Assembly: GCA_009746045.1 (NCBI GenBank)
Contig: RPFO01000389.1
Location: 818,440 to 882,439, forward strand
From: Mesostigma viride
Lineage: Eukaryota > Streptophyta > Mesostigmatophyceae > Mesostigmatales > Mesostigmataceae
Direction of reading: 5' to 3'
Length of the DNA stretch: 64,000 nt
In this document: piece by piece, positions 7,605-37,106 of the stretch
How positions within the stretch are numbered: the first letter of the stretch is position 1
Layout of the letters: the number at the start of each line of letters is the position of its first letter
Program-made: the position numbers and the translations under genes
Notes under the pieces: model-generated
What the model was told of the DNA's origin: nothing
The model's input: the letters and a program-made list of their open reading frames with translations, nothing else
Database searches by the model: none

Positions 7605-7609
7605 CTAGG

Positions 7610-8190
7610 TGTTATATTATAGGTTTCAGCTCGCAGTCACATGGAAATAATTAATGATCGTGTGCCGGTACTTAGCCGTTTTGCGGTTCGAGGCGTTCGG
7701 GTTAATTCGGCGCGTTGGGACTTAGCCGTTTTGAGGTTCGGCTGAATTTCGGCTTGTGTGATCCACAACGATTAAGTTACGCTGTGTGCGTTATGCCTCG
7801 TGAGTTACGCCCTAGACTTTGGCTGTGCAGCACTGGTCCGGTACTGAGGTGCGGACTAGGATTCTGGGTACTGCCGGCCGTCGTGACAAGTGGTGAGATA
7901 CTGGTGTGTGTCGATTGGTCGGTACTCGGCTGGTGTGTTGTAACGGAGATGTGTAACGGAGATGCGTTCCCAGGCTTGCGTCGGTGCCTAGCGCCGCAGG
8001 CTAGCCTAGCCGCCTGACAGACGATGATGATCCAAAAGCCAGCATTGTGTTGCGGCGGTCCAACGGTTGTTGCTGCTATGCTGGCAATGGCTATGGTTGC
8101 GCTGGTAAATTAAGCTGGGGGCTTGGCTCTGAGTCTGTAACCTGATTACCGTAAATTATCATTTAATAAAATTCGAACTCAATTTCAACA
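7610..8190 (+). repeat. Copia-1 5' LTR
   Basis: 581-bp direct repeat with TG...CA ends, about 99% identical to 24417-24997. Of the five differences seen, three are CG in this copy against TG or CA in the other. It ends with an AATAAA (near 8165) and would contain promoter and polyadenylation signals. An open frame within it is LTR sequence, not a gene. Confidence 0.92.
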
Positions 8191-8234
8191 TGTACTAGGA
8201 CGGGGTTAATTAATAATTAAGGGAAAACGTAGCA

Positions 8235-8851
8235 ATGTCGGATCAAGAACAAGAAGAGACGGATTCGAGAAAGCGTACTGGGTGGAAGGATTTAAGAAAT
8301 GAGAAGAATTTGATAGAGCTGTGCAAAACACGAGTCGGGACAATTCCTCTTGATGCGGCAGTGACATTGGTAGAGGATTTCTGTGACAGGTTTGAGGCGT
8401 TTGTGGCGGATCATGCAGATAAAACCGAGGATCTGTATGGGCTATTCCGGGATGCCGGAATGTTTAGAGCCGACAACGCCATTCTAGTAAATTGCCTGCG
8501 CTCCTGCCGTGACGAGAAAATCGAGGGCGCTGCAATTGGAGGTAGGTTGCGTGCAGCACTTCTTGAATCGAAAGCATCTGCCAAGTCTCGTCATGTTGGC
8601 ATTTATAATTGGGTGCCGAAGCGTCCCTACACACTCGACCTTCTCGCTTTGAGAAATGCGAGAAACGAGAGTGTAAAGGATGGCATTCCGGTGGTGGAAC
8701 TGGCGGTGGTGGACCGTTATGTTCGCAATGCCAAGGACCTTAATTTCCAGAATGCCATGGCAGCTCTCAAGCGTGAGAAAGCCGAGGATGATCTCAATAA
8801 GGCGATTGAGGTTATCACGGGCATTGTCGAGGGTGAGGAGAGGGACATGGT
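8235..8851 (+). CDS. gag: Copia-1 Gag, N-terminal part
   Basis: Starts at ATG 8235, 44 bp after the 5' LTR (MSDQEQEETDSRKR). About 205 charged, helix-rich residues follow with no zinc knuckle, as expected for the capsid part of a retrotransposon Gag. The true frame is broken by the Gypsy insertion at 8852, where translation would run into 25 foreign codons and a stop. Joining 8851 to 19442 keeps the frame (the split codon becomes a Val), so this and 19442-20051 are one gene. Gag would assemble the cytoplasmic particle packaging the element's RNA. The assignment rests on position and on the zinc knuckles in the second half. Confidence 0.75.
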
Positions 8852-9689
8852 TGTCGCGTCTGCGTGCCACAATCTCCGGCGCCACCATGGCGGCTGGCCA
8901 CTCAGCTTAATTTGGTAAAACTCAAATGAGCTGAGCTGACGTGCCTGCCTTAACTGCATGCCCTGTGGGGTGGGCGAGGACCTGTCCCATGATTCCAGTT
9001 GCCGTCCTGGCTTTCTACCACACATGCCAACAAAAGCAGGAAGGCATCCCGACAAATCTAAATTGCTACCCTCTTGCCGATCTCATCTCCTAGAGGCTCC
9101 GGCATTTCTGTCCCTGGGAATGTCCGGCATTGAGTCACGTCCACCAAGGTCGAAGCATAATATCCTTCAGACAATCTGCACGCTCACACCTTGCGTGTGA
9201 GTGGCCCAGCAAACATTGCGTCTAATCGTTCCTTTCTAGAAGAAATCCCTTTGTAGGGCTGCCAGCGATTTCGCATTCATTCCAGCGATCTGGCTGCGCA
9301 CCGCAAATTGTCCTTTTCCATTTTCTGTCCAGTCCTCATAACGTTGACCCGCTATTCTACACCACAAAGACACCTGGCCTGTCAATAGCCTCGGCGCTGT
9401 TGAAGTCCAGCAGTCCAGCTTCAGCTCCAGCTGTCCACTAACACGCGTATGATCCTCTCGACGCTGCGCACTTGTGCTGCCGTCCGCTCAAGTCAGTGCT
9501 GCGCGCCCAGCTGTGCCTGGCCCGGCGCGCATGCACGTACACTTTCGTCCGCTCTTATGCTGCAAGTGCTAGTGTCCCCCCCGGTCACTAGCCTTTGTCG
9601 AAAATGCGTAGAAAACAAATTCCTTGCGCACGTCACCGGTCTTGTGCATAGTGGGCGCCGCCCGGATGACATAGCTCGCGTCCGTGACA
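8852..9689 (-). repeat. Gypsy 3' terminal repeat A2-B2 (838 bp)
   Basis: Minus-strand order is A2 (9689-8992) then B2 (8996-8852), with the attcc at 8992-8996 shared. The unit starts TGTCACGG and ends CGCGACA on the minus strand, like an LTR. A reappears without B at 18739-19437, and B without A at 9692-9836. Confidence 0.85.
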
Positions 9690-9691
9690 GC

Positions 9692-9836
9692 TGTCGCGTC
9701 TGCGTGCCACAATCTCCGGCGCCACCATGGCGGCTGGCCACTCAGCTTAATTTGGTAAAACCCAAATGAGCTGAGCTGACGTGCCTGCCTTAACTGCATG
9801 CCCTGTGGGGTGGGCGAGGACCTGTCCCATGATTCC
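9692..9836 (-). repeat. Gypsy repeat B1 (145 bp)
   Basis: Copy of 8852-8996 with a single difference (aaaccc against aaactc). It sits between the end of pol and the A2-B2 repeat, separated from A2 by only gc (9690-9691). It ends at attcc, which recurs at 18739-18743 at the inner edge of A1. Confidence 0.85.
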
Positions 9837-9860
9837 CCCCCTCGCTGGCGACCGGCCCCA

Positions 9861-12800
9861 TCACGAAGACAGCGATCGTACCAAGACAAGGGCAGCGGTG
9901 ACCGCAGTCAAGCTGCGGGAGGTAAACTGCGCAGCGGTGCACACTGGACAAAACCAATCCCCCTCCGGAATGCTGGTGACCACTGGCTGCAAGCACTGCA
10001 TGTGCCAACCACAGTTACACTGATCACACAATAACATGGACTCCGCCTGATCGACCCGGTGACAAACCTGACACTGGGCGTCCTTGACTCGGCGAGACGT
10101 GTGCGGTTGGAGGTCGTGGACCAAATTGGGCAGCGAGCAGGGACTGAGATTGCTGAGGTTGTCAGTCGTACGGCTCCCGTCGGCGCCCTCCAAAATTGCC
10201 ACTCCCGATGGTTTGATAGCCACAATGCGCAAAATGGTGGGCCCCGCCTCCACATCCAAAGTGTGCTTCAGCTGAGTGCGCAGGAAAACATACTGCCCTG
10301 GCCTAAACCGCAGCTGGCGAGCCATGTATGCGCCCCCCCGGCGCTGAGCGTAGCGCAGGGAGTCCCTGTGCTGAGCAATGAACAAGTTGTTCATCGCGAT
10401 GGGCATGACCTTCTTAAAAGTCTCTGCCCTGGCCAGCACCTCAACCAAAAATTGCTGAGCGTTGTCGAAGGCCATGGGTTCGGGGTGCGCAACCTGTGCC
10501 TCCGTAGGCAAAAGAGGATTACGCCCGAACAGAAGGAAATACGGGGAGAAGGTAGCGAGAGACTCCTGGGGAGACATGCGATAACCCATGGCAATCCATG
10601 CCAACTCGCGATCCCACCTGGCCGACTCCGGCACCTGCAGGCTCCACTTGCGCAGCGCCTGCTTGACGGTCTGCACCAATCTCTCAGCCAAACCATTGGC
10701 CTGAGGATGCTCCCGAGAAGTGCGACGGTGATCAATAAGACATCCATCCAGCAACTCCTGGAACTCACCCCTGAACTCACCACCCTGGTCCGTGACTACC
10801 TCCGCGGGAGCCCCAAACCTGGTTATGATGTCCGCAAAATGCTTCGCTGTGGTAGCGGCATGCTTGTCAGCAATGGGGATCAACTCAACCCATTTGCTAA
10901 AGCTCTCCACGCATACCATGACATAGAGGTTGCCGTCAGGGCTCTCCTGAAACGGCCCGCACAGATCGACGTGCCAGCGATAAAACAAGCCCTTGATGGG
11001 AAGCGACATCAGCTCCTTGGCACCATGATCTGCGCTAAAGTTAGCCTTGGTTCGAGCACACGGGACACAGCTGGCCACTACCTGGGCCACCGTGTGTCGC
11101 ATGTTATTCCACCAATAGCTGGTCCGTACGAGGCTGAGCGTGCGATTGCCACCCAAGTGACCATACCGCTCGTGGTACGCCTGCACTATAGCAACGCGCT
11201 TGTCAGGCGGTGGGACGACCACCCTACGCTTGCCCAACAGCTTGTACAAAACCCCATCTTCCCAACCATAGGTTGCAGCCCTGTGCTGCACCCTGTTCAA
11301 CTCCGTTGCCTTCTGAGCAGGAGTCCAATCGACTGGAGTAGGAGTCAAGACAGCACCCTGCACTTGCTCCAACACTCGACCATCTAGCCAGATATCAGCG
11401 GTGTAGCAATCAGCAAGAGAGCTACGCGCTAAGAGAGCCTGCACAGCGATCAGCTGCTGCAGAGAAGGATCAATGTCAAAGGACAGAGACCTACCCTCTT
11501 CCATAGCGCACACAGCTTTGGATGGCGTGAATGGCGACGGCCGCACCGGGTCGTCGCTGATGCCGAAGTCCGCCACAGAGTACTCGACACTGCGCCACCA
11601 CGCCTCCTCCTCATCGTCGGCCGCATACCCAGCAGCGTTCACAAAGACCACAGAACCAGACGAGCCCTCGGCACCCATGGCCCGGGCTCCAGTGTGGTCA
11701 ACAGTGGTAGGCATGGCGTATCGGGATAGCACATCGGCGTTGACATGGTCCTTGCCGGCCCGATGCACAATGGTCATGTGGTACTCCTGGATAATCATGG
11801 CCCATCGGGCGAGCTTACCCGTCAGGTTGGTGTTGGTCATTAGCCACTGAAGCGGCTGGTGGTCTGTCACCAGAGTAAACACGCGCCCAAATAAATACGG
11901 GCGAAAGTGCTTGATGGCCCACACCACAGCCAGTGCCTCCCCCTCATAGGAAGAATACCGGCTCTCCGCTGGGTTGTTGCTGCGACTAGCATAAGCAATA
12001 ACGTGCTCGCGCCCATCACCATCCTTTTGCGCCAAGACCGCACCCAGTCCTACCTTGGACCAGTCGGTATATAACACAAATGGCAAAGCATAGTCAGGGG
12101 CGCGCAGAATCGGTGCCGACGTGAGCTCCTGCTTGATTGTCTCGATGGCGCGTTGCTGTGCGGGACCCCACGCCCACACGCACCCCTTCTTGAGTAACTC
12201 GGTCAAGGGCTTCACCTTGCTGCTGAAGTTCTCAATGTAACCTCGGTAATAGCCAGCCAAACCCAAATACGCCCGCACCCCTGAGACATCCGTGGGTACG
12301 GCGGCCTGCGCAATGGATTCGACCTTGGCGGCATCAGGCGTCCGGCCACCCGGCACAATCTGATGACCAAGGAATGAGAGGGTCCGCTGGGCGAACTTGC
12401 ACTTCTCAGGGTGCAGCCGCATATTATGCTCCTCGAGAGCCAAGCGAACCTGCTCCAAGTGCGCCAGGTGCTCCTCAAATGTCGCGCTAAAGACGATTAC
12501 ATCATCAATGTAACAAGCGGCGAAAGGAAGACCTGCAAGCACTTTGTCCATAGCTCGTTGGAAAACAGCACTAGCGTTGCGGTGCCCAAAGGGCATGCGC
12601 ACCCACTCATACAAATTGCCGCCCCCCCAGAATGCAAGCTTCCGCTGATCCTCCGGCGCAACTGCGATCTGATGAAAGCCGCTACGCAGGTCCAGCGAGG
12701 ACACAAACTTCACATGAGGAGATATCTTATCCAGGACATCATCCACACGTGGCATGGGGTAACGGTCCACGGGTGTGTGTGCATTCAGCAACCGCAGATC

Positions 12801-13889
12801 GGTGGCCATGCGCATACCCGTCCATGCCCCGGTGATAGCGTCCTTCTTGGGCGCAACGACAACGGCAGCAGCATAGCTGGAGGAAGATTGCCTGATGATA
12901 CCGGCATCCTCTAACTCCTTGCATTGCTCGGCTACAAAATCCAACTCGGCCTGACTCAGGCGATGCTGGCGTCGGAACAAAGGAGTGTCAGTGTCCAATG
13001 GAACACGCATGGTCCCACCATTGAAACACCCCAGTTCATCACTTGTGAAAGCGAAGGCCCCCCTTGCAGTGCCTAGCCACTTTAGCATGGCTGAGCGCTG
13101 CGCATCAGAAAGGTGTTCGCCAATAGCCCAGGGGTGCGTATCCGCGGGATCACCCACAGCTACCGCATGTGCCTCAAGATGCGGCGCCCTAGCCGCATCG
13201 TCGTGGAACAAGGAAAAGGCTGCCACACCTGGTGTGACACCCACCGCCGGAGCCTCGCGTGCCGCACGGTGTATTACCCGATGCAGCGTGGGCTCGCCGG
13301 CCAGCACGGTGCTGGTCAGCAGGGCGGTCATGAGAATGATAGTCCACACCTGTCGCAGACGCCACCCCCATGCTGATGAAGTCCCCGTCGCTGCAGGGCG
13401 CTTCAGTTTGGCTGCGCGCGCCTCAACCTGCTGAGGCGGATTGGCTGGGGACGCCCCCCCAGACTGGCGCACGGCAACCGATGCAAGCAGCACATACCCG
13501 ACCTGCAACACCGACATAGCCTGGCCTATCAAAGACCAGCGCTCACTCTCGAGCACGCCCGGCAGCGCCGAGGCCCCGACATGAAAACCCATGCTGGCCT
13601 CACGAAATTCTGCGGGTGGCTGCACCAACAGACCGGTGGTAGTGTCCCAAACGAGACCCTTACCCCGATCACGGTATGCTGTCGACCCTTGGTAACTGAC
13701 CAGGGTCGGCAGTGCACACATGGGGCTCCCGACCCGGTTGACGCGTGCATACGGTGGGCGATCCTCGCTATCCACCTTCTGCGTGACTAGGTGGGAAGGC
13801 AATGCTACCTCCGCAGACACACTCGGATGCTGCCTTGCGACGGCCCCAAGACCGCCTGCACACCGGTCGCACACGCCACGTTGGTCCAA
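9861..13889 (-). CDS. pol: Gypsy Pol: MTase C-term, RT, RNase H, integrase, PHD finger
   Basis: A frame of about 1,340 codons with no obvious ATG at its start; it overlaps the preceding frame by 85 bp, suggesting expression by frameshifting. Residues ~50-135 carry the methyltransferase C-terminus (ALPTLVSYQGS; LIGQAMSV as motif X). A hydrophobic segment (VWTIILMTALLTSTVLAG) follows at ~185-205. RT: motif A SSLDLRSGFHQI, YIDD at about 12500. RNase H: LYTDWSK, YEGEALAVVWAI, TDHQPL. Integrase: H-H-C-C finger (HERYGHLGG...CVPCARTK) and core D-D-E (WHVDLCGPF, VVTDQGGEF, NGLAERLVQ). The C-terminus has a C4HC3 PHD finger (CQVC, CDQC, H-x2-C, W-x-CPVC) instead of a chromodomain. All catalytic residues are present. 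The frame stops 24 bp before repeat B1. Confidence 0.92.
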   Translation of the reverse strand: MDQRGVCDRCAGGLGAVARQHPSVSAEVALPSHLVTQKVDSEDRPPYARVNRVGSPMCALPTLVSYQGSTAYRDRGKGLVWDTTTGLLVQPPAEFREASMGFHVGASALPGVLESERWSLIGQAMSVLQVGYVLLASVAVRQSGGASPANPPQQVEARAAKLKRPAATGTSSAWGWRLRQVWTIILMTALLTSTVLAGEPTLHRVIHRAAREAPAVGVTPGVAAFSLFHDDAARAPHLEAHAVAVGDPADTHPWAIGEHLSDAQRSAMLKWLGTARGAFAFTSDELGCFNGGTMRVPLDTDTPLFRRQHRLSQAELDFVAEQCKELEDAGIIRQSSSSYAAAVVVAPKKDAITGAWTGMRMATDLRLLNAHTPVDRYPMPRVDDVLDKISPHVKFVSSLDLRSGFHQIAVAPEDQRKLAFWGGGNLYEWVRMPFGHRNASAVFQRAMDKVLAGLPFAACYIDDVIVFSATFEEHLAHLEQVRLALEEHNMRLHPEKCKFAQRTLSFLGHQIVPGGRTPDAAKVESIAQAAVPTDVSGVRAYLGLAGYYRGYIENFSSKVKPLTELLKKGCVWAWGPAQQRAIETIKQELTSAPILRAPDYALPFVLYTDWSKVGLGAVLAQKDGDGREHVIAYASRSNNPAESRYSSYEGEALAVVWAIKHFRPYLFGRVFTLVTDHQPLQWLMTNTNLTGKLARWAMIIQEYHMTIVHRAGKDHVNADVLSRYAMPTTVDHTGARAMGAEGSSGSVVFVNAAGYAADDEEEAWWRSVEYSVADFGISDDPVRPSPFTPSKAVCAMEEGRSLSFDIDPSLQQLIAVQALLARSSLADCYTADIWLDGRVLEQVQGAVLTPTPVDWTPAQKATELNRVQHRAATYGWEDGVLYKLLGKRRVVVPPPDKRVAIVQAYHERYGHLGGNRTLSLVRTSYWWNNMRHTVAQVVASCVPCARTKANFSADHGAKELMSLPIKGLFYRWHVDLCGPFQESPDGNLYVMVCVESFSKWVELIPIADKHAATTAKHFADIITRFGAPAEVVTDQGGEFRGEFQELLDGCLIDHRRTSREHPQANGLAERLVQTVKQALRKWSLQVPESARWDRELAWIAMGYRMSPQESLATFSPYFLLFGRNPLLPTEAQVAHPEPMAFDNAQQFLVEVLARAETFKKVMPIAMNNLFIAQHRDSLRYAQRRGGAYMARQLRFRPGQYVFLRTQLKHTLDVEAGPTILRIVAIKPSGVAILEGADGSRTTDNLSNLSPCSLPNLVHDLQPHTSRRVKDAQCQVCHRVDQAESMLLCDQCNCGWHMQCLQPVVTSIPEGDWFCPVCTAAQFTSRSLTAVTAALVLVRSLSS

Positions 13890-15187
13890 TAGGCACGCAA
13901 ACGATGCGTGAGCCCACCCAGCCCTGCGTTGTCACACACGATGGGCTCCCCCAGGAGTGCCACGATTGTAGCCCAGTCCTCCCGCACCGCCTGATGTGGG
14001 CTGTCACCCGCCACAACGTTCTCAAACAGATACGCAGGCGGATGGGGCTGACGCGACTGCAACAGTCCCACCACACGCAACAGTTCCCAGAACAGCGCGC
14101 TACGCGGATCGGCTAGCCCCCGCCCTTGCCCTGCCTGGCTCAGGCCCTGGCACTCCCAACCCGCAATTACCAAGTCGATGGCATGATGCCTGCGCAACAA
14201 CTGCTGCACCTGCACCTCACCGATGGCTCGGATATCTTGAGGACATTCCCCAAACGGGTCACGCCATGCTGATGGCGGAAACTGCGCGGGATACTCTCGC
14301 GACAACACGCCACAGTGACTGAAGTACACCTGACGCGCCTTGTGCGATGGCTCTACCGCGATGAGTTTACGGCACACGCCGCCTGCGGCCAAAAAGCCTG
14401 CAATGCCCCCTCCGATCCCCGCAAACAGTTCCAACACTACCGCACCCTTGGCAAAATCAGGGGCCTGCGGTAAGATTGCAGCAGAAAAATTACCTTGGGC
14501 CTCCGAGACACCCGGTTGCACCAAAGTGAGGCCATGGCTGGCCATCTGAGGAATGGTGATGACGGCTTCAGTCACCCGCTTGCGCATAGCCAGCTGCCGC
14601 GTGGACGTCACAGCATCCAGCGACCACTGCGTGCGCATCTTGGCAATGCTCGCCGTTGGCTGAGGCAGCACCGTCCGATGCTTGTCCCACGCCGATGAGC
14701 CCGCCGCCCGTACCTCCACCATGCTGACCTCCACCACGCCCGCAGCCGCGGAAGGGTTGAGGCGTGCAGCCCCGGCTGAAGAACTGAAGCATGAGACCGG
14801 CACACTGGCCCGCTTCAGGCCAGCCCCATCCCAATCAGGGATGTAAGATGCCTCCTCCGCCCTATAGTCCACCTGAACCATGGCGCGAGCAAGGACATCC
14901 ACCCCGAGTAGTGCGGAATATCCACACTTGTTGACCACCAGCGCATACGCGGACACGGTGGTCATGCTAGAGGCGCGCAACGGATTGAAAATCACGTTGA
15001 CTTTAACCGCCGTCATAGCGTACGGCTTACTAGCCGGACCCTGCCAACCTGACACAGACACGGGGCTTTCTACTAAGCCACCGTTCTCGTAGGTCAGGTT
15101 CAGCATGGTGGCCAAGTCTGTGCTGATGACTAGCGGCTGAGCACCGCTATCAAGCTTGACTGCGCCAACCAACGGACATGTCACCAT
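13805..15187 (-). CDS. Gypsy protease fused to C5 cytosine DNA methyltransferase
   Basis: From ATG 15187 the protein opens with a retropepsin: LDSGAQPLVIS (D-S-G) and, about 75 residues on, SALLGVDVLA. From about residue 250 it is a C5-cytosine methyltransferase: motif I LELFAGIGGGIAGF, motif IV AGWECQGLSQAG with the catalytic Cys but Glu in place of the usual Pro of PCQ, DPRSALFWELLRVV, motif VI FENV, and THRLRAYW in the place of motif VIII. The target-recognition part and motifs IX-X lie in the next frame, so the complete enzyme needs a frame change in the 13805-13889 overlap. The expected reaction is transfer of methyl from AdoMet to C5 of cytosine in DNA. The frame is open upstream of 15187 and may be reached from Gag by frameshift. 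I consider the family assignment strong and activity unproven. Confidence 0.88.
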   Translation of the reverse strand: MVTCPLVGAVKLDSGAQPLVISTDLATMLNLTYENGGLVESPVSVSGWQGPASKPYAMTAVKVNVIFNPLRASSMTTVSAYALVVNKCGYSALLGVDVLARAMVQVDYRAEEASYIPDWDGAGLKRASVPVSCFSSSAGAARLNPSAAAGVVEVSMVEVRAAGSSAWDKHRTVLPQPTASIAKMRTQWSLDAVTSTRQLAMRKRVTEAVITIPQMASHGLTLVQPGVSEAQGNFSAAILPQAPDFAKGAVVLELFAGIGGGIAGFLAAGGVCRKLIAVEPSHKARQVYFSHCGVLSREYPAQFPPSAWRDPFGECPQDIRAIGEVQVQQLLRRHHAIDLVIAGWECQGLSQAGQGRGLADPRSALFWELLRVVGLLQSRQPHPPAYLFENVVAGDSPHQAVREDWATIVALLGEPIVCDNAGLGGLTHRLRAYWTNVACATGVQAVLGPSQGSIRVCLRR

Positions 15188-15228
15188 GTCGCTCCATACA
15201 TCTCCACAGGCTCCAACTGCTTGGAACG

Positions 15229-17913
15229 CTATGGACGGCTCACCATTGGGGTATGGAACACCGTGGGAACCTGGGGAACTGCACTAGTGCGCTGCTGGCT
15301 ACTTGTGCTGACCACTCCCGCTTGCACCACGGGCACTGCGGCTTCTACCGGCTGACGCCCGTAGGTGACGGACTCAGAATTGCGCAAGGTGCGCACATCA
15401 TGCCCATCTGCGAACAACTGGATCTCGGACACAACCGACCCCAGCCACTCAACCCCCTTCTGCCCGAAGGTGTCGACCACCTGCCGTGCTGAAAACATGG
15501 GTACGTCCACAATGAACGGCATTGGGTACACAGGCGCCAATCGCCTACGCTGCTCCAGCCCAGCAGGGTTCGCATGCTCAAAAGCAGATTGCACCCCAGC
15601 CAGCGGCATGGAAAAGGACGCGGGCAACTGCCCGGCAGGCAACATGGGTGCCTGCTGAAAAGAAAGCGGGCTGCGTGCCTGCTTGCCTTTGGTAGCCTCC
15701 GCAGCGTTGATCTCGACGTCACCCGGCATGGGCGCCCAGAATGGGTCCTCCCGGTACACCGTCGCGAATTGGTTGGGGGGCGCCGTCGCCTCCTCACCAT
15801 GCTTGATGGCAGCCACCTGGGCTTCCATCGAGTCGGTCTTGCCCGCCATCTCGGCGAAGTGGACCGTCTTGATGCCCGCGGCTGGACACTTGTTCATCAG
15901 GTGCCACTTCGTGTCTGCCCCATGCGGCTTCGTGCAGCGGCTTGGACACTCGCGACTAAGGTGCCCATCCTTGTCGCAAAGGTAACATTTACCGCGTGAC
16001 GGGGTGGGTGCGCCCAGCGCGCCTTGCACGCCCTGCGCCTCCTGAGTCCCATCCGATGACGGCGGACGACCGCCTCCGCCTCGACCACCACCGCGACCCC
16101 GACCACCGTAGCCACTGCCGCCGCCACCACGACTGACACCGCCACTGCCACCCTGACCGCCACCGCCGCTGCCACCCTGACCGCCACCGCCGCTGCCCCC
16201 GTGACCGGCGTTGCCACCACCCTGAGTGCCGACATATTCACCGCGCCCCGCACCAGGCAGCCGCTGGCCACCCTTGACCGCGATGGCCTTCTCCATCTCA
16301 GCCATCTTCTTGCGCATCTCAGCCAGCTCAGACGAGATACCCTTCTCGCCTTCCGCACGCTTCCTGAGCAGCCGCTTGAATGCTGCACAGAGAGTCACCA
16401 AAGTCCACTCCCCACCGGGCGGCTCCGGAAGATCGATGGCCAGCAGGGGCACTGCACTCCGCCATAACCGGCAAGCCTTGGTCTGCGTATAATCAGGCAC
16501 TTTGCCCGCAAACGCGAGAAGCCGGTCAAGGGAGAAAGCCGGATCCTCACCCTCGGCGACGGTGAACGCTCCATTCCATTCCGCGATGGCCTTGACGTGC
16601 TCAACTGGGTACTCCAGCCGCAGTTGCTGCCACAGCTGCTCTGCCGGGTCGACATCGAAGATGATCGAGTCGAGATCCGGTGTGCCCATGTCCGTGAGCG
16701 CAAACCATATGTCCGTGCGATGACATCGGTCCACGAGCGCTCGGTAATGCTGGACCAAAACCTGGACCTTCTTCTTGGTCAGGTCATGGAAAAAAAGGTG
16801 AATAAAATCCATCACCATCTCATGGCGAAGAGGATACCCCGAGGCATAACGATAAGTGTTACAATGAGCTCGGAAGAGCTCATAGGCTTCCTCTAAAGTC
16901 GCACCCGTGCCTGCTGAGGTGAACTTCTCGCGAAGCTCCACCTTGGGCAGCGATGGCACACGAGTGGATTCGCCATGCACGCCGTACGGCATGCGGTGGG
17001 GTCGCTGGACGTCGTCGCCCTCACCCCATGGTATGCTGGCTACCTCCCGATCGACTTGGCCCCAGCCGAAGTCTGACCGAGTGCCGCCAAGCCTGGGCCG
17101 CCCTGCGGTGCCACCCAACGGCGTTGCTGCCGCCGTCATGGGTGGCCGACCTGTGCTAAACAAGCCACCTGATGCTCCCCCCCTGGGGGCTGCACCATAC
17201 CCGCCGCGCCACGATAACGTGCCTTGGTTGGGTGCCCGTAGGTTCCCCCCCAGCGTATAAGATGCGTCGGCAGTCGACCGGGTGCCTACCCGACCGACGT
17301 TCGGCTGCAGCTCGTCATCCTGCGCCATTTCCCCGTCGCCCCGCCGTTGACCGCTTGGTCCGACGCGTGGCTGACTGGGCTCAACGTTGCGTAGTGGACC
17401 TGTCCCACTGCGCTCTTCGTCGAAGTGTCCGCGTTGGTCGCGCAGCGCCTCATGTCGCCGCGCTTCCTCGGCAGCGGCCTCCTCGTCGGCAGCCTGCCTG
17501 GCCTCGGCGTCGCGTTGGGCCGCAGCTTGGCAGGCGCGTGCAGCTTCCGTGGTTGCCTCCGCCTGCCGCCGTTGCTCAGCGCGCTCCGTAGCACGCCTCG
17601 CTTCAGCCGTAGATTCCGCGCGCTCCAAAGCAAGTCGCACAGTTTCTTCAACAAGCGTCGCCTGTTGCGATAACTGCGTCGCTTGCTGAGCTCGGAGTGC
17701 CGCCAGCTCTGCCGCTTGCTCTTGCAGCAGGCGCAGCACTTGGGTAAGAGCACCACCGTCCCCTGCCGAAGAAAGGGAAGGCGCTCCATTACCTAACAAA
17801 GCGGTGTCCGCACTAGTGCCGAGACGACCGCTGGGCGGGTCAGTTGCTTGACCGCCCGTAGCTGCCGGCGCTGACCCACCACTGCCTGATGCTGTGGGGT
17901 CAGTTCCTGACAT
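15229..17913 (-). CDS. gag: Gypsy Gag with CCHC zinc knuckle
   Basis: I choose ATG 17913 (MSGTDPTASGSGG) as start; the same frame is open to 18039 with further ATGs, so a longer form is possible. The order is a Ser/Ala/Gly-rich N-terminus, a long Ala/Glu/Arg coiled coil (about residues 60-160), a capsid-like region (ELFRAHCNTYRYASGYP... and following), a Gly-rich linker with GGSGGGGQ repeats at about 16090-16210, then one CCHC knuckle (CYLCDKDGHLSREC) and a Cys/His-containing extension. It would form the particle shell and bind the element's RNA. The protein ends at 15229 and the protease frame begins at or before 15187, an arrangement typical of frameshift-controlled Gag-Pol ratios. Confidence 0.85.
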   Translation of the reverse strand: MSGTDPTASGSGGSAPAATGGQATDPPSGRLGTSADTALLGNGAPSLSSAGDGGALTQVLRLLQEQAAELAALRAQQATQLSQQATLVEETVRLALERAESTAEARRATERAEQRRQAEATTEAARACQAAAQRDAEARQAADEEAAAEEARRHEALRDQRGHFDEERSGTGPLRNVEPSQPRVGPSGQRRGDGEMAQDDELQPNVGRVGTRSTADASYTLGGNLRAPNQGTLSWRGGYGAAPRGGASGGLFSTGRPPMTAAATPLGGTAGRPRLGGTRSDFGWGQVDREVASIPWGEGDDVQRPHRMPYGVHGESTRVPSLPKVELREKFTSAGTGATLEEAYELFRAHCNTYRYASGYPLRHEMVMDFIHLFFHDLTKKKVQVLVQHYRALVDRCHRTDIWFALTDMGTPDLDSIIFDVDPAEQLWQQLRLEYPVEHVKAIAEWNGAFTVAEGEDPAFSLDRLLAFAGKVPDYTQTKACRLWRSAVPLLAIDLPEPPGGEWTLVTLCAAFKRLLRKRAEGEKGISSELAEMRKKMAEMEKAIAVKGGQRLPGAGRGEYVGTQGGGNAGHGGSGGGGQGGSGGGGQGGSGGVSRGGGGSGYGGRGRGGGRGGGGRPPSSDGTQEAQGVQGALGAPTPSRGKCYLCDKDGHLSRECPSRCTKPHGADTKWHLMNKCPAAGIKTVHFAEMAGKTDSMEAQVAAIKHGEEATAPPNQFATVYREDPFWAPMPGDVEINAAEATKGKQARSPLSFQQAPMLPAGQLPASFSMPLAGVQSAFEHANPAGLEQRRRLAPVYPMPFIVDVPMFSARQVVDTFGQKGVEWLGSVVSEIQLFADGHDVRTLRNSESVTYGRQPVEAAVPVVQAGVVSTSSQQRTSAVPQVPTVFHTPMVSRP

Positions 17914-18039
17914 GTTGATGGTGGTATCGACCCTGGAGAGCTCCTGCCCGTCGGTGTCGACGCCCGTGTTGGCACAGCCTGCGTGGCTTGCCAAAAACGC
18001 TGTGACCGACCTAGTGTGATATGACATAAACTGCCACAA

Positions 18040-18738
18040 CCACTACCAAGTAGCAACGGTCTAATCTGAAAGACTTAATGGTTGATCAGGCCACTATGTG
18101 TGCTAGTCTTCCCCAGAAAACTGCACACCGTCTCTCTTTGCTGAAATGAAAATGTTCCTTTGCAGATGGAGCTAGTCTCTTCGAGTAATGAAAAGAGGGC
18201 TCTCAGCCGAGGACAAGGAACTGTCCCTCGTGCCTGATGACCACCTTCTTGATCCCCTTGTGTACCGTCGCGTGCCGCGTTTGAATATCCTTGCTGGGGC
18301 GTTAGCTAGACGCTCCAACTACTCTAATTGCGACAATATGATGGTGCAAGAGGGTGCTTTTGCCTCCCCTGCTATAGAACAATGCTTTCACAACACACAC
18401 TTTGCACAGTCTGATGATGAAGCCGCACATGCGGAATTTATTGAGAAAGTTAATACAATTACAACACGTTGATAGTCTCAATATCGATGCACTCCATGCT
18501 CACGAGCCCGCAGTTAGGCAGCGCTCCATGACATGCTACCGGCCTTGCTCCCAAGGAAAGGGAGAAACACGAAGGCCACTAACGAGAGACTCGAAGAGAC
18601 TACACGCTGCGTGAGAGTCCTCTTCGACTATGAACCAAACCATTCGTCATGCCACACGCATGACACACGCCACACTTGTCAGTCCAGCCAGGAATGCCAA
18701 AACTATCTTGCTGCCTGAACCATGCAAATAGAAACCGC
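18040..18738 (-). other. Gypsy 5' leader between A1 and gag
   Basis: About 700 bp separating repeat A1 from the Gag frame. No tRNA primer site could be assigned with confidence next to A1 (minus strand begins gcggtttctatttgcatgg). On the opposite strand a 94-codon frame (18188-18472, starting MKRGLSAEDKELSL) looks protein-like in composition but matches nothing I recognise. Confidence 0.5.
18188..18472 (+). CDS. Small hypothetical ORF antisense to Gypsy leader
   Basis: 94 residues from an ATG, with balanced composition (MKRGLSAEDKELSLVPDD... ending ...EKVNTITTR) and no low-complexity bias. It lies wholly within the Gypsy leader in the opposite orientation to gag-pol. No domain recognised. 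It could be an antisense accessory product, captured sequence or chance; there is no ribosome-context or homology evidence. Confidence 0.25.
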   Translation: MKRGLSAEDKELSLVPDDHLLDPLVYRRVPRLNILAGALARRSNYSNCDNMMVQEGAFASPAIEQCFHNTHFAQSDDEAAHAEFIEKVNTITTR

Positions 18739-19437
18739 ATTCCAGTTGCCGTCCTGGCTTTCTACCACACATGCCAACAAAAGCAGGAAGGCATCCCGAC
18801 AAATCTAAATTGCTACCCTGTTGCCGATCTCATCTCCTAGAGGCTCCGGCATTTCTGTCCCTGGGAATGTCCGGCATTGAGTCACGTCCACCAAGGTCGA
18901 AGCATAATATCCTTCAGACAATCTGCACGCTCACACCTTGCGTGTGAGTGGCCCAGCAAACATTGCGTCTAATCGTTCCTTTCTAGAAGAAATCCCTTTG
19001 TAGGGCTGCCAGCGATTTCGCATTCATTCCAGCGATCTGGCTCCGCACCGCAAATTGTCCTTTTCCATTTTCTGTCCAGTCCTCATAACGTTGACCCGCT
19101 ATTCTACACCACAAAGACACCTGGCCTGTCAATAGCCTCGGCGCTGTTGAAGTCCAGCAGTCCAGCTTCAGCTCCAGCTGTCCACTAACACGCGTATGAT
19201 CCTCTCGACGCTGCGCACTTGTGCTGCCGTCCGCTCAAGTCAGTGCTGCGCGCCCAGCTGTGCCTGGCCCGGCGCGCATGCACGTACACTTTCGTCCGCT
19301 CTTATGCTGCAAGTGCTAGTGTCCCCCCCCGGTCACTAGCCTTTGTCGAAAATGCGTAGAAAACAAATTCCTTGCGCACGTCACCGGTCTTGTGCATAGT
19401 GGGCGCCGCCCGGATGACATAGCTCGCGTCCGTGACA
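18739..19437 (-). repeat. Gypsy 5' terminal repeat A1
   Basis: 699 bp, near-identical to 8992-9689 (one C-run length change and a few substitutions). It lacks the 145-bp B part that follows A in the 3' copy. Its outer end, CGTGACA, abuts the 4-bp target duplication cggt. Confidence 0.88.
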
Positions 19438-19441
19438 CGGT

Positions 19442-19795
19442 GGCCCAACTGCGGGCCCAAGGTAAGCTCAATGAGCTGGGTCTGATTTCCCCTGCATTAC
19501 CGCCTGTCGCTGTGAATTCCATTCCTTCTTCTGGTGGTGCCCAAGGTGGTGCTGCTAAAGCGCCGGATGGAGGCAAGGTGGCCGCCATTGCGGGCGGTGG
19601 TGGCTCTAGCGGCGCGGGGCCCAGCGGGCCTCGTGACAATGGGGGCCCGATGCGTAGGGGCAATAAGGGCAGCTTCAGCCGAGCGCAGCGCATGCCTGGG
19701 AAGCGATGGCAGCAAGGTAGGCAGCAGCCATACCCGCAGCAGCAGCAGCATGCACAACAGCCAGCTGCGCCGCCGTATCAGCAGCAACAGCGCTC

Positions 19796-19840
<45 letters not shown>

Positions 19841-20051
19841 TGCACAGCCGGCAGTGCATGGGGCATGCTTTGTGTGTGGGAAGTCGGGACACATGGCAGC
19901 CAACTGCTATCACAGGCACAAGGACACTCTCCAGGCACGCAGCAACGCCAACTCGCAAGCACCAGCGGTGTGTCACAGGTGTGGGCAGCCAGGGCACTTT
20001 GCGAGGGACACTCACCTGTGCCCAGCGGCCCAGGGCGGTGGCCGTAGGTGA
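19442..20051 (+). CDS. gag: Copia-1 Gag, C-terminal part with two zinc knuckles
   Basis: Continuation of 8235-8851 after the Gypsy element (VAQLRAQGKLNELGL...). It carries a Gly/Ala-rich linker, a poly-Gln run encoded by an uninterrupted CAG tract (about 19796-19838), a CCHC knuckle (CFVCGKSGHMAANC) and a second knuckle-like C-H motif (CHRCGQPGHFARDTHLC, with altered spacing at the end). These bind nucleic acid in retrotransposon particles. The frame ends at TGA 20049-20051, 15 bp before the next frame starts. Integrase and RT follow in the same direction. Confidence 0.85.
19796..19838 (+). repeat. CAG trinucleotide repeat within gag
   Basis: About 14 consecutive CAG units giving poly-Gln in the Copia-1 Gag frame, flanked by shorter CAG-rich stretches from 19737. 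Probably length-variable between copies. Confidence 0.9.
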
Positions 20052-20066
20052 CTAGGTGAGGTTGGC

Positions 20067-21516
20067 ATGCGGGCTGGTGCAGGGGAGGCCAGCTCGACCC
20101 CCCAGGTGTACTCACCCTACCTGGGTGCTCAGGTGGCGGTGCTAGCAGGCACTAGGGAGAAGGGGGGCCACCTGGAGCATGGGACAGCTGCAGAAGGGGG
20201 AAGGGCAGTGTCTCAGGGGATGGGGAATGAGTGGGTTGGAGGCGCTGCAGGGGGGCACACCGCAGCGGGCGGGCCGCCGGTAGGTAGTACCTCACCAGAC
20301 CCTAGTTCAGCACATGTGAATGGTGCGGCGTGCGGTGAGGCAGCCGGGTCGCTCAGTGTGGCCACACGGTTACACAAAGCACTAGGGCATGGGCATGCGG
20401 GTGAGGAGTGGGCAGCCATGCTAGCTAGGGTTCACAGACTTAGTGGATATGTGCAAGCAGGTGTGGTTAAGGTGTCGCAAATGTCAGGAGCGGGCACCCA
20501 AACCGCACAAGTTCCATGCACGTAGGCCAGAGTTTGAGCGAGGTGTGGTGCAGTGTGATGTATTCATGTATGACGACAGAGACTACGTGCTTGCAGTGGG
20601 CAGGTTCTCCAGGTACAAGGTCATGGTGCCACTTGAGCGCAAGCTGAAGGAGCACTTGTGTGATGCATTGCGTCTCATCAGGTCCAAGTTTGGTGTGGCA
20701 TCTGTGTTGGAGTGCGATCAGCAGTTTGAGTGCTGTGTGGGTGAGCCGGGTGTGGGGAAGATAGAACTTGCTGGGGTAGCTGACCACGAGCACCAGGGTC
20801 TTGTCGAGCGCCACATACAGACATCGAAGCAGGTGATGGCATGCATGGAGAAGATGAGAACAGGCTCGTATCGTGAGAGGCTGGTGATCTGCAATGAGAT
20901 AGAGCAATGTCTCAACAACCGTGTAATGGTCAAGGTGTTGGGTGGGCAGGTGGCAGTCACGCCTAAGAGAGTGGAGATGGGCTTGTTGTCACCTGAGGCT
21001 GTGGAAGAATACAGGGATTATTTGAGCGATCGTTACGTGCGCATGGTAAAGATGGACCTGCGACGTGGACAGGTTTATGTGCCGTGCGTGAACGCCAGGG
21101 TCTGGGCCTACGCGGAGGGCAGTCATGGAAAACGGGGCCTATGGAGAGGTCCCGGTGTGGTCAAGGAGATCGATCCTGATCACATGCTTGCTTCGGTAGC
21201 GCTAGATGACAGTTGCTACGACAAGCTGCTAGCGTGGAAACACCTGCGCCCCTACTATGACGGGCTGGGGCCGCCAGACCCACCCGCTGAGGAAGGTGTT
21301 AGGGACCCCAGTGTGCAGGCTGGGGGTGAGGCGGGGGATCCCGGGGCTGCAGGGGGGGTGAGGGAGGGGGGTGGGCCTGATCAACCCGTACTCGCTCCCT
21401 TTCGCCGGAAGCTGGGTTGCCACCTTCCAAGGGCGGTCCCGCTAGCGTGGGGTCGGGCGGTTCGGGGGTTGCCCCAGCCGTTGACGACCAGGAGAAGCAG
21501 CGCGCCGCGGTACTAG
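20067..21516 (+). CDS. Copia-1 integrase, one frameshift
   Basis: The first frame (ATG 20067 to 20525) holds a Gly-rich leader and the His pair of the integrase finger (LHKALGHGHAGEEW). The Cys pair (RCRKCQERAPKPHK) and core are in the frame of 20443-21516, so one frameshift lies near 20445-20520. The core D-D-E is visible as VVQCDVFMYDDRDY, VLECDQQFE and HQGLVERHIQTSKQ. A C-terminal beta-rich part (VWAYAEGSHGKRGLWRGPGVV) follows. The enzyme would join cDNA to host DNA. No retropepsin motif occurs between the Gag knuckles and this domain, unlike standard Copia elements where protease precedes integrase. Confidence 0.82.
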
Positions 21517-23942
21517 CCCGCCTAGTGGAGCGCCTGCAGGAAGCTCGACGCGCTGCCACGGTGGGCGAGCAGCGGCAGTTGGGGGGCAACATCTCGCGGG
21601 CCGGCAAGGAGCGGGTGGCCGAAGGTGGGATGGTACCACGGTCCGGTGAGGCGGGTGAGCCAGCCGAAGGTGGGGTTGCACGGGCCGGCGATGCTGGGGC
21701 ATTGACCGCAGGTGCGGGGCAGCAGGCTGGTGGCGTTGGCGGGTTGGCCGGCACGGGGCCTGCATTGCCGAGTGAGGACGATAGCCCCATGGGCGACAGC
21801 GAGGCTGTCGAGGAGAGAGGTGAGCCAGGTGAGCTGGTGGCTGCGGTCTCTAAGCTTGCCAACTGGTATTCGGACGGGCTGGGTAGTTGTCGATTGGAAG
21901 TGGACACTGACGCGGTGGTGTGCTTGCTGGGTGAGGGAGTAGCCAGGCATCTGCCGTGCACTGCGTCCAAGTGGAGGTATGTGGAGGACTTCTCCGGGTT
22001 AGTGAGGATGCCGGTGCGGGGTGAGGTAATGCTGACGATCTTGGGGAGGGAGACGCCGTTTTGCGTGCTCGAGGGGTATGATGGACCCGCCATTTTGGGA
22101 CTTCCTTTCCTGGACCATCCTGATGTGCGGATTCAGAGCTCATTGCTAACCCGAGTAGGTCACGGGTCGATAGAGCTACAGTCTTACAAGTCAGTCGAGC
22201 CTCTCAGTCGCATTTGCAGCACAGTGGCTAGGCTAGCAGCACTGTCGGGTACGGAGGGTGTAGCGTGGGGCGCTGATCTCCCGCCAGCTGCTGACCTGGT
22301 TATGCCTGCATTACTGCATCCCAACAGCTTAGGAATCACTGAGAGGGACATAGCCGCACATTCCCCGATCACATTCCCTGAGCTTGTACTGCAGATGTCA
22401 ACGCCTAGTGGGTTCTCGAGCTGGTGGTGTGCATTCCGTAAGGCACTTGAGGAGTGGCAGGGCTACGGGGTGTATGAACCGCTTGACACGGTGCCGAAGG
22501 GGGCTAGGGTGCTTCCGCTGAAGATGGTGCTGTCCCACAAGGTGAAGGCAGGTGTGGAGATCTGCTACGTGAGGCCGGTATCGCAAGAGTTTGCAGGTAC
22601 TAGCCCGCTGGCCAAGGAGGAGCTCTATACCCCAGGGATGGCATGGGACACGTTCAGGATGGTTAGCATGACTTTTCTTAGCTTTCTGGACGAAGGCAAG
22701 GACTACGCGTGTGCGTCCATTGATGTCAAGCGCGCATTCCCTAACTCTAGCGAGGAGGTGGCGCAAGAGGTGTGGGAGGGTACTCCGCCTCTAGTGGTGC
22801 AGACGCCGTCGTTCTGGAAGGAGGTGGTCACGTCTGAGTTCATGGGTCTGTGCAAGGCTATAGAGGGTCTGCAGAGCGCGTCGATTGTTTGGAGGATAAC
22901 CCTCATGTGTGCGTTGGGTGAGATCGCAGAGTTTGAGGTATCTCCCTACGACCCATCGTTGTTCGTGGCGCGGATGCCGTCTGGTCCTATGTTTGTACAA
23001 CTGCATGGGGATGACTTGCGTGTCATTGCTTCGCGGTCAGCCTTGCATGCATTCTATGCTGACATTGGGCGGCGGTTCCCAGTGGGTGAGTTGCAGCAAT
23101 TGGGGCCGCAGACGCCACGGGTGTTTTGCGGGGTGGTGCAAACCCTGCGGGTGGTGTCGGGTAAGCACCGGATGCACTTGGGTATTCCTGACAAGTACAG
23201 GGAGGAGCTCATGCGCGATGTGGAGGAGTTGTGCGCCAAGGGTTTGTGGAGCAGATTGCGTGGCAAGCTCGGCTGGATGGCAGCGGTGTGTGGGCCTGAC
23301 CTGCTGGTGTTAAGCAGGACTGTGGATGAGGTGTTGGCTCTCGTTTCTCCGTCTGTGATCAAGCAGTATGTTGCTGAGAGCCAGGGTGTAGTACTTTCTG
23401 GTTTGTCTCTTTCTCAGCCGATTGTGTTGCATTGCTTTGCTGACACGTCTGGCGAGGGCAGGGAGCTCACCAAGACGAGAGCTCGCATGGGCGGCTTGTT
23501 TGTGCTCTCCAACCTCAAGGGCAATGGTTCGCTCTGTGGGTGGTACTCAAGGTTGTGTCGCAGGGTGGCAGTTGGATCGGATACCAATGAGTGTCGTGGG
23601 GTGTGTGAGTGTATCAAGGCGTCCATGTATTTAGAGCAATTTCTGCGCTGGATGGGCAAGTGGCTGGATGCTCGTTTGGTACTGACCACGACTGTGCATA
23701 CCGACAGTCAGCCGCTTGTGAGTTTCATTCTCAACAGCCTGTCCAGGACGCGCGACCTGGATTTCCTACTACTCAAGGAGCTGTCATACGCAGTGAGCGT
23801 GCTTCATCTACCTGGGAAGCTCAACCCGGCTGATGCGCTGACCAAGCTGTTCGCTGGGGCGCGAGACCAGTATCGCCTCCTGCGGATGGTCATGGGGGGC
23901 TCTCTCGGGGATCTGCAAGGACTGCTGGATGGTTTGATGTAG
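21417..23942 (+). CDS. pol: Copia-1 protease-like domain, reverse transcriptase and RNase H
   Basis: An uninterrupted 841-codon frame overlapping the integrase frame by about 100 bp. After a Gly/Ala-rich leader, residues ~155-240 form a retropepsin-like domain: RLEVDTDAVVCLL (D-T-D where DTG is usual) and VLEGYDGPAILGLPFLD. RT follows: ELYTPGMAWDTFRM, motif A IDVKRAFPN, and a catalytic box HGDD (about 22998-23020) in place of YVDD. RNase H-like features follow (CFADTSGEG, HTDSQPLVSF), then SRTRDLDFLLLKELSYAVSVLHLPGKLNPADALTKLF, the typical Copia C-terminus. The frame is intact to TAG 23940-23942. If the DTD site is inactive, particle maturation would need a protease supplied in trans. Confidence 0.88.
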   Translation: MPPSKGGPASVGSGGSGVAPAVDDQEKQRAAVLARLVERLQEARRAATVGEQRQLGGNISRAGKERVAEGGMVPRSGEAGEPAEGGVARAGDAGALTAGAGQQAGGVGGLAGTGPALPSEDDSPMGDSEAVEERGEPGELVAAVSKLANWYSDGLGSCRLEVDTDAVVCLLGEGVARHLPCTASKWRYVEDFSGLVRMPVRGEVMLTILGRETPFCVLEGYDGPAILGLPFLDHPDVRIQSSLLTRVGHGSIELQSYKSVEPLSRICSTVARLAALSGTEGVAWGADLPPAADLVMPALLHPNSLGITERDIAAHSPITFPELVLQMSTPSGFSSWWCAFRKALEEWQGYGVYEPLDTVPKGARVLPLKMVLSHKVKAGVEICYVRPVSQEFAGTSPLAKEELYTPGMAWDTFRMVSMTFLSFLDEGKDYACASIDVKRAFPNSSEEVAQEVWEGTPPLVVQTPSFWKEVVTSEFMGLCKAIEGLQSASIVWRITLMCALGEIAEFEVSPYDPSLFVARMPSGPMFVQLHGDDLRVIASRSALHAFYADIGRRFPVGELQQLGPQTPRVFCGVVQTLRVVSGKHRMHLGIPDKYREELMRDVEELCAKGLWSRLRGKLGWMAAVCGPDLLVLSRTVDEVLALVSPSVIKQYVAESQGVVLSGLSLSQPIVLHCFADTSGEGRELTKTRARMGGLFVLSNLKGNGSLCGWYSRLCRRVAVGSDTNECRGVCECIKASMYLEQFLRWMGKWLDARLVLTTTVHTDSQPLVSFILNSLSRTRDLDFLLLKELSYAVSVLHLPGKLNPADALTKLFAGARDQYRLLRMVMGGSLGDLQGLLDGLM

Positions 23943-24416
23943 ATCTGGGCAATGGACCATGTGGCATGAGAATTTCAGGCTGGCAGGCGTTGGGACGCAT
24001 TATATGTGGGCTGGGGATGACCCCTGGATCGAGCCCGTCTCAGGATGACCCAGTACGGTTGGATAACTCTATCTTGGTGGGGATGTACCCGATGGGATGG
24101 TCCTGGGTTGAGGACCTGATCGGAGGCGGGGACTGTGGTTGGTGATGTGTGAAAGTCCGTGGGTTCAGGGTGTGGTTGGTGTTGGAGCCGAGGGTGGTCT
24201 TTTGATCAGTCTTGTATTCTTGCTTGCTTACTTGACTTACTGACAGATGCTGGTTGTACTGCCGGGGCGTGAATGGGCGCCAAGTGAGGGGTGCGGACTC
24301 CCCTAGTACATAGCGTCCTGTGTTAGTGCTTCCTGGTGAGGTGTCTGTCGGTTACTCTCGAGCTGAGTGAGATAATGATTGGTGGGATGTGTGACTGCTC
24401 GGGAAAAAGCGGCTGG
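23943..24416 (+). other. Copia-1 3' untranslated region and polypurine tract
   Basis: 474 bp without coding signal between the pol stop and the 3' LTR. It ends in gggaaaaagcggctgg immediately before the LTR TG, a plausible plus-strand primer. Confidence 0.7.
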
Positions 24417-36987: not shown

Positions 36988-37106
36988 AGTACCATTAGAA
37001 GCATTAGTTGTGGCTGCCTCTTTTCTCTCGTGCTTGCTTGTGTTTGGGGAGGTACTGTGTATTGTGTACCTAGTACGGTGCTGGTGAGGCGGGTACGTGG
37101 GCCCAA

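Follow-up and report, generated by a model that had tools for sequence, protein, structure and literature searches.

A 64,000-nucleotide stretch of the Mesostigma viride genome (contig RPFO01000389.1, positions 818,440 to 882,439 of the forward strand; hereafter the window) contains a Gypsy-type retrotransposon on the minus strand at 8852-19437, which encodes a C5-cytosine methyltransferase (MTase). The element has three open reading frames (ORFs), namely a gag-like ORF (18039-15229), a protease-MTase ORF (15187-13805) and a pol ORF (13889-9861). The initial annotation had placed a C5-MTase at 13509-14480, a region within the element, and all the motifs on which it relied are present on the minus strand: motif I (VVLELFAGIGGG), motif IV (AGWECQGLSQAG), FENV, THRLRAYW and LIGQAMSV. 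The first four lie in the protease-MTase ORF, and LIGQAMSV (motif X) is located at 13532-13509 within the pol ORF. The domain therefore possesses motifs I, IV with its cysteine, VI (ENV), VIII and X of the C5-MTases, split over two frames in the window copy, and its motif IV reads ECQ in place of PCQ; the motif numbers are those we take to apply to this family. The PF00145 profile matches the protease-MTase ORF with 46.9 bits, against a cut-off of 22. The C-terminal part is regarded as real despite its different frame, because an MTase profile built from homologues matches the start of the pol ORF at 1.4e-29; the underlying alignment (A1) includes the protease-MTase ORF of the window and excludes the pol ORF. 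In the homologue P0002, the N- and C-terminal parts are continuous. As annotated, the domain is positioned between an aspartic protease (KLDSGAQPLVI) and the reverse transcriptase (RT). The description of the pol domains as intact applies to RT, RNase H and integrase, which are open, but not to the MTase, whose frame is broken in this copy by a -1 change between motifs VIII and X; a second -1 change occurs between gag and protease. The MTase is nevertheless confirmed as an integral part of the Gypsy-type element, beyond chance, because 92 genomic places carry it at 98% identity or more and homologous domains occur in Gypsy polyproteins elsewhere.

The annotated Ty3/Gypsy affiliation is borne out by the order of protease, RT, RNase H and rve integrase and by a target-site duplication (TSD), and the RT tree described below also includes rows named as Gypsy-type, such as P0054 ("transposon 297"). 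An ordinary pair of long terminal repeats (LTRs), however, is absent; split direct repeats are found instead, with the end segments in the plus-strand order A, B, A, internal, B (Table 1). The near-identity of the two B segments fits the description of the copy as young. No phage-integrase (tyrosine recombinase) match was obtained in the three ORFs at a threshold of 0.01, where rve was found instead, and the protease region gave no Pfam protease match at the same threshold. The PHD finger profile PF00628 is also listed for some relatives.

Table 1. Features of the element and of the element that surrounds it (window coordinates; TSD, target-site duplication)
Feature	Position	Strand	Evidence
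Whole element; sense order B1 - internal - A1 - GC - B2 - A2; termini TGTC...GACA	8852..19437	-	self-BLAST; boundaries compared with other copies
TSD, one side; TGGT on + strand	8848..8851	.	sequence
TSD, other side; CGGT (one mismatch to TGGT)	19438..19441	.	sequence
Segment B1, 5' end of element	18735..19437	-	99.57% identity to B2 over 699 bp
Gag-like ORF with CCHC zinc knuckle (15940-15993)	15229..18039	-	PF00098 1.2e-4
Aspartic protease region (KLDSGAQPLVI), start of protease-MTase ORF; limits approximate	14798..15187	-	sequence; aligned with P0001
C5-MTase, N-terminal part (motifs I, IV, VI, VIII)	13841..14470	-	PF00145 3.3e-12
C5-MTase, C-terminal part (LPTLVSY, MGF, motif X LIGQAMSV), pol frame	13470..13820	-	MTase profile 1.4e-29
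Reverse transcriptase	12357..12851	-	PF00078 7.1e-28
RNase H	11781..12095	-	PF17917 6.6e-39
Integrase zinc-binding H2C2	11043..11213	-	PF17921 1.5e-16
Integrase core (rve, DDE type)	10704..10982	-	PF00665 7.1e-11
PHD finger, C-terminus of pol	9939..10073	-	PF00628 5.5e-9
Segment A1, preceding the second B	9692..9836	-	99.3% identity to A2
A1-GC-B2 junction GACAGCTGTC, palindromic; two element termini abutted with 2 bp between	9686..9695	.	27-bp junction pattern
Segment B2	8992..9689	-	self-BLAST
Segment A2, 3' end of element	8852..8996	-	self-BLAST
Copia-like host element	7610..24997		ends 7608-8190 / 24415-24997, 99.1% over 583 bp; CTAGG flanks both sides; RVT_2 in 21417-23942

Copies, reading frames and ends in the genome

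The genome (439.9 Mb, 2,243 contigs) was scanned for copies. The best 92 of 556 candidates for the protease-MTase ORF were scored; all are at least 98% identical, the window's own included, and they are distributed over many contigs. The initial annotation would have been refuted by an MTase profile without a hit, or by family copies without the domain, which would have made this element a one-off chimera; the profile matches, these copies carry the domain, and so do two further families. Family 2, which resembles P0001, is 61-63% identical over its last part, and P0001 itself is found in this genome at 97-99% (C2134). Family 3 was reached through the RT alone (86%), and the MTase is present in all three stretches fetched from 14 such RT hits. 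These are also the most divergent hits of a search by RT for an MTase-free sister family, in which 150 of 2,791 candidates in the genome were scored. The first protein search, in which length and shared words restricted the candidates to 2,827, returned two hits, the EukProt "Mesvir1" proteins P0001 and P0002, with identities of 63% and 69%, respectively.

The scored places fall into two groups. Thirty-two of the 92 match as far as residue 460, where the frame of the window copy ends; the other 60 match as far as residue 449 and then leave the query. The break within the MTase is present in all 30 copies fetched from the residue-460 group, the window's own included. In contrast, motifs VIII and X share one frame in 19 of the 20 copies fetched from the larger group. 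Twelve of these 20 are open to a marker preceding the RT and six shift frame between motif X and this marker; the marker is missing in two, one of which is the copy with the motif VIII-X change. Upstream, the frame from gag to motif VIII is open in eight of the nine sampled copies that show the gag marker, which the tenth (L071) lacks. Since both frame changes in the window copy are -1, a programmed -1 frameshift inside the MTase was considered. It is rejected as a family-wide feature by the single frame of motifs VIII and X in nearly all sampled copies of the larger group, together with the mostly open frame upstream, and may still serve the sublineage with the break.

Pattern counts across the genome, allowing at most one mismatch, revealed 571 B starts, 579 A ends and 243 A-GC-B junctions, with no reversed patterns. 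These counts mix families, as several junctions adjoin the 86% RT hits; about 330 outer ends of either kind are left if every junction takes one B start and one A end. Perfect 4-bp TSDs flank all five other copies read at both ends: ACCA (C1668), AGCA (C1468), GGTT (C113), ATTC (C1) and CACC (C2, with ends 27 kb apart). This count omits L119, L121, L123, L128 and L130, whose fetched stretches missed the 5' boundary, the unpaired 3' ends at L120, L122, L124, L129, L131 and L132, and copies for which the 5' end alone was read (in L075, L077 and L079). On the sense strand, the window copy has ACCG/ACCA, with one mismatch. Because the TSDs are perfect in the five other copies, the TGTC...GACA ends appear to be joined to 4-bp staggered targets in the manner of a DDE integrase.

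Most copies may have a longer 3' repeat unit than the window copy does. Among 29 A-end spacings, read by eye from 100 places listed of 579, 13 are approximately 1281 and 12 approximately 1394, compared with 840 in the window; most of the readable pairs thus have a longer unit. In copy C113, the unit comprises B and about 550 bp of the internal region, followed by A, and C1668 represents a form without the junction at its 3' end. L090 and L072 likewise have 3' units with the first part of the internal region ahead of A, and two lengths recur among the pairs read. By eye, a few solo-like B...A units measuring 1.1-1.4 kb could be recognized, which suggests that B..A corresponds to an LTR.

A relative, L036/L137, is a 9,285-bp contig carrying gag-protease-MTase and pol, followed by a PHD-like stretch seen by eye. 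It is filed under a cyanobacterial metagenome-assembled genome and is read here as a misfiled eukaryotic element. The contig begins and ends with the same 127 bp, as for the circular assembly of a repeated unit, an arrangement that fits split repeats and LTRs alike. Scanning of the 1,974 bp between pol and gag yielded one CA-ended inverted repeat of at least five bases, with 12-bp arms around TTGACA-TCTT-TGTCAA, whereas mononucleotide shuffles average 0.5 repeats of five or more bases. This repeat is read as putative abutted termini. With its threshold of five, the scan missed the window junction, which has arms of four, and returned another repeat of the window, and hence provides no test of the window.

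Pairwise Nei-Gojobori comparison of the window with a family 3 copy (L134) gave nonsynonymous (dN) and synonymous (dS) values, the latter near saturation, of 0.215 and 2.52 for the N-terminal part of the MTase (203 codons) and 0.182 and 3.6 for its C-terminal part (105 codons). The corresponding values are 0.191 with saturated dS for the start of the RT (71 codons) and 0.483 and 1.76 for the protease and linker (200 codons). The MTase is thus under purifying selection, with a constraint similar to that of the RT and stronger than that of the protease region. Between the window and family 2, the dS of the MTase is saturated and no ratio is available. Within family 2, L111 gives MTase ratios near 1 (0.96-1.01) against L113, L115 and L118, and is taken as a decayed copy because it contains three stops.

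Relatives and the kind of enzyme

Polyproteins with the domain were found in Closterium (P0008, P0018, P0023, P0025 and P0034), in EukProt P0133 and on unnamed contigs, most of them short. In a midpoint-rooted tree of 63 MTase domains, from which streptophyte host Dnmt3, DRM and CMT sequences were left out, the 23 retrotransposon rows group together with a support of 100/99, apart from 40 viral, bacterial and DNMT3A rows. DNMT3A joins seven viral rows (97/88), and these join the retrotransposon clade (99/96). The RT tree comprises 78 rows, the 75 best and three others, of 111 with a sufficiently long RT. All 19 MTase-bearing rows fall within a 26-row clade (99/91), and the domain is missing from all 51 rows outside it. 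The seven clade rows that show no MTase have an RT beginning at residue 119 or earlier, leaving no room for it. P0024, the next RT row out, has room before the RT and gave no match to the MTase profile. The clade also contains P0007 from the liverwort Calypogeia fissa, located on a 41.7-Mb contig, the gene model of which begins too late to show an MTase. Across 12 elements, MTase and RT distances are correlated (Mantel r 0.778; none of 2000 permutations as high). In a seven-row RT subclade (100/100), the domain follows RT-RNase H and precedes the integrase; in the rest it precedes the RT. Since one RT clade holds all MTase-bearing rows and the two domains diverge together, the MTase was probably taken up once, in an old acquisition.

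Among solved structures, the MTase profile matches DNMT3A/B at 1e-16, HaeIII at 5e-9, 4onj, named a DNA methyltransferase, at 2e-8 and HhaI at 1.5e-7; we take 4onj to be a DRM. The fold was modelled on the PCQ relative L036, not on the ECQ domain of the window, with a pLDDT of 93.8. All 50 PDB matches listed for this model, of 225 at 0.001, are DNMT3 entries, with E values from 1.2e-19 and TM-scores to the target of up to 0.83; the best viral model matches the L036 fold at 2.9e-16. The profile and the predicted fold of a relative thus favor a Dnmt3-like enzyme, the catalytic domain of DNMT3A/DNMT3B being the closest solved structure on both counts. The identity to DNMT3A/DNMT3B is nonetheless about 20%, and motif IV is ECQ or PCQ in the clade and PCN in DNMT3. 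No ADD or PWWP domain appeared in the Pfam scan of the element ORFs, in which neither was sought by name.

On the MTase profile, however, viral enzymes of marine type reach comparable scores (up to 70.6 bits), and in the tree they are placed with DNMT3A. A recent phage origin is rejected: 93 phage records match, all at less than 60% identity, and none of the 40 viral, bacterial and DNMT3A rows nests within the retrotransposon clade. With P0002, which contains the C-terminal MTase half, as the query, no phage was found. Separately, the Mesostigma genome contains a different, bacterial-like C5-MTase (L133, G000:C35:13500-21500), adjoining by eye a cysteine-desulfurase-like frame. Ten places show an equal score and a 364-aa frame, and other groups have frames of 313 and 325 aa; this MTase might represent endogenous giant-virus DNA in many copies.

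The comparison drawn in the initial annotation with retrotransposon MTases of dinoflagellates and a charophyte alga is apt (PMC5890265). According to the available text of that source, KnitGypsy-Dnmt3 of Klebsormidium nitens shares the Gypsy domains, a Dnmt3-related MTase in Pol and purifying selection, and has repeats "the same as that of a DIRS retrotransposon", which is the layout found in the Mesostigma element. The likeness is judged from the description. K. nitens and Mesostigma belong to different streptophyte classes, and no sequence named as K. nitens occurs among the homologue matches listed (120 of 176 in one search), many of which are nameless. The 4-bp TSD, abutted-end junction, ECQ motif and domain shift of the Mesostigma element are not mentioned for KnitGypsy-Dnmt3 in the same text (PMC5890265). 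SymbioDIRS-Dnmt3 of Symbiodinium, as described there, shares a Dnmt3-type domain in Pol with RT, split direct repeats and two domain orders, but encodes a tyrosine recombinase, whereas the Mesostigma element has an rve (DDE) integrase and target duplications (PMC5890265). In the parts of the sources available, PMC12344493 assigns the known elements to Copia and DIRS families and PMC5890265 assigns that of K. nitens to Gypsy; the domains of the Mesostigma element are those of Gypsy.

With Ty3/Gypsy (Metaviridae-type) elements, the Mesostigma element shares the protease-RT-RNase H-integrase order, H2C2, rve, TG...CA ends and a short TSD; it differs in lacking an ordinary identical LTR pair and in its extra MTase. 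With DIRS/PAT-type elements it shares the split direct repeats but not the tyrosine recombinase, and it makes target duplications, which DIRS/PAT elements, to our knowledge, do not. The element is thus of the same, already known kind as KnitGypsy-Dnmt3; how old and widespread this kind is, and how its unusual ends are built, emerges more clearly from the present analysis. As far as could be found in the literature, mostly outside subscription journals, this element is unreported in Mesostigma or Closterium.

Methylation-writing retrotransposons have so far rested on two algal lineages, presented as separate captures in the source text available. The Gypsy form now appears as one old clade, comprising Mesostigma, Closterium, environmental sequences and, by RT alone, a liverwort, in which the MTase is inherited and constrained like the RT. 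Acquisition in the K. nitens lineage was concluded in PMC5890265; a clade that includes Mesostigma suggests an older event. The purpose of the enzyme becomes testable in an alga that carries hundreds of insertions and whose methylome has been published. Elements that combine split repeats with a DDE integrase further provide a test case for integration starting at joined ends.

Proposed role and alternative explanations

We favor, as reasonably probable, a reading in which an old Gypsy clade, mainly of streptophyte algae, acquired a Dnmt3-like MTase, probably once, and has kept it in a Gag-Pro-MTase-Pol arrangement, with the predicted function of methylating the element's own complementary DNA (cDNA). 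The candidate roles suggested in the initial annotation are silencing of competitors, marking of the element's cDNA and concealment from host surveillance. The MTase is probably translated within the polyprotein, because it shares one frame with the protease and, in many copies, with pol. It would then be packaged with RT, RNase H and integrase as a subunit of Pol, and would methylate fresh cDNA, chiefly at CG, either ahead of integration or while it takes place. Such cDNA would resemble the host's CG-methylated DNA and look native, because M. viride DNA is methylated mostly at CG: it bears 5-methylcytosine, with CG as the most abundant site (PMC6947507). De novo CG methylation in yeast is described for two SymbioDIRS-Dnmt3 domains (PMC5890265). 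The cDNA may further pass through, or be templated from, a form with abutted termini (GACA-GC-TGTC), and the integrase would join the TGTC...GACA ends to target sites cut 4 bp apart. A more far-reaching version, which we put forward tentatively and consider doubtful as a whole, is that of an ancient, streptophyte-wide clade combining a Gypsy polymerase, a DDE integrase and DIRS-type split repeats, which would integrate from palindromically abutted termini and whose once-acquired Dnmt3-like enzyme would methylate the DNA before integration. Bacterial transposon circles offer a parallel for integration from abutted termini.

Several observations weigh against the favored reading. A sublineage of at least 32 near-identical places, including the window's, has multiplied with a split MTase, so that some rounds of multiplication may proceed without an intact MTase in cis; this spread suggests help in trans or occasional frameshifting. 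The MTase lies in broken frames in two of the three family 3 stretches, and the family 2 copy L111 bears the stops described above. Glu replaces Pro beside the catalytic Cys in 11 of the 23 clade rows, including the window, a change that might modify DNA methylation or eliminate it. When the window sequence alone serves as the query, 4onj ranks first (2.6e-5) and DNMT3B reaches 0.009, so that 4onj and bacterial enzymes outscore DNMT3. The DNMT3A link in the tree depends on one partial, long-branch sequence and on the midpoint root, and the abutted-end intermediate is read from genomic junctions only. CpG-type transitions among copies are moderately enriched only (36 of 70, against about 31% expected); host enzymes could produce this lean, which shows at most that integrated copies are methylated. 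Finally, no methylation was obtained in yeast with the K. nitens enzyme, a result that its authors regard as inconclusive (PMC5890265).

The CpG lean is also compatible with action of the MTase on integrated DNA, by which it would mark chromatin at or near insertions together with the PHD finger and thereby silence rivals or limit the element's own rate of spread. A PHD finger in the same polyprotein and in some relatives accords with this role, and a self-limiting function is discussed in PMC5890265. However, the embedding of the MTase in the polyprotein at either position favors work on nucleic acid in the particle, and the CpG observed/expected ratio of the element (0.86) exceeds the values of 0.60-0.73 found elsewhere in the window, which fits young copies and does not indicate heavy local methylation. 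We therefore regard action on integrated DNA as unlikely. A role on element RNA, or as a nucleic-acid-binding subunit, in which ECQ would reflect lost C5-DNA catalysis in part of the clade, draws on the confinement of ECQ to the clade, since it occurs in none of the 40 viral, bacterial and DNMT3A rows, which have PCQ or PCN, and on the inactivity of the K. nitens domain in yeast, a result regarded as inconclusive by its authors (PMC5890265). This role appears distinctly unlikely, as the window copy and nearly all aligned relatives retain the catalytic Cys, ENV, R.R and motif X, the domain is under purifying selection and PCQ persists in 12 of the 23 clade rows.

The history of the domain could alternatively involve independent captures by separate Gypsy lineages, which would only appear to form a single clade. 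Two different positions of the domain in pol are consistent with this, as is the acquisition described for the K. nitens lineage (PMC5890265). The MTase clade (100/99), the RT clade (99/91), the subclade with the RT-MTase order (100/100) and the co-divergence of the two domains argue for one capture followed by one position shift, which is simpler, and render independent captures quite improbable. A one-off chimera or assembly artefact in the window, to which its two frame changes might point, is refuted to the point of being virtually out of the question by the 92 scored places, which reach at least 98% identity and are spread over many contigs, and by homologues in other assemblies.

Surroundings of the element

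By position, the Gypsy-type element is inserted in the Copia-like element and cuts its internal region. The Copia-like element is in turn enclosed by a 1.17-kb direct repeat (2369-3530 / 39415-40582; 96.7%), perhaps an outer, older LTR element that would give a threefold nest. A second direct repeat (29415-30083 / 36323-36991), 99.55% identical over 669 bp and 6.9 kb apart, likely represents a further young LTR element. An ORF of 645 aa at 26741-28678 matches RT (PF00078, 1.1e-9) and has a LINE-like look. Tandem repeat arrays occupy 42338-43121 and 52676-53349, the second of which shifts in 9-bp steps.

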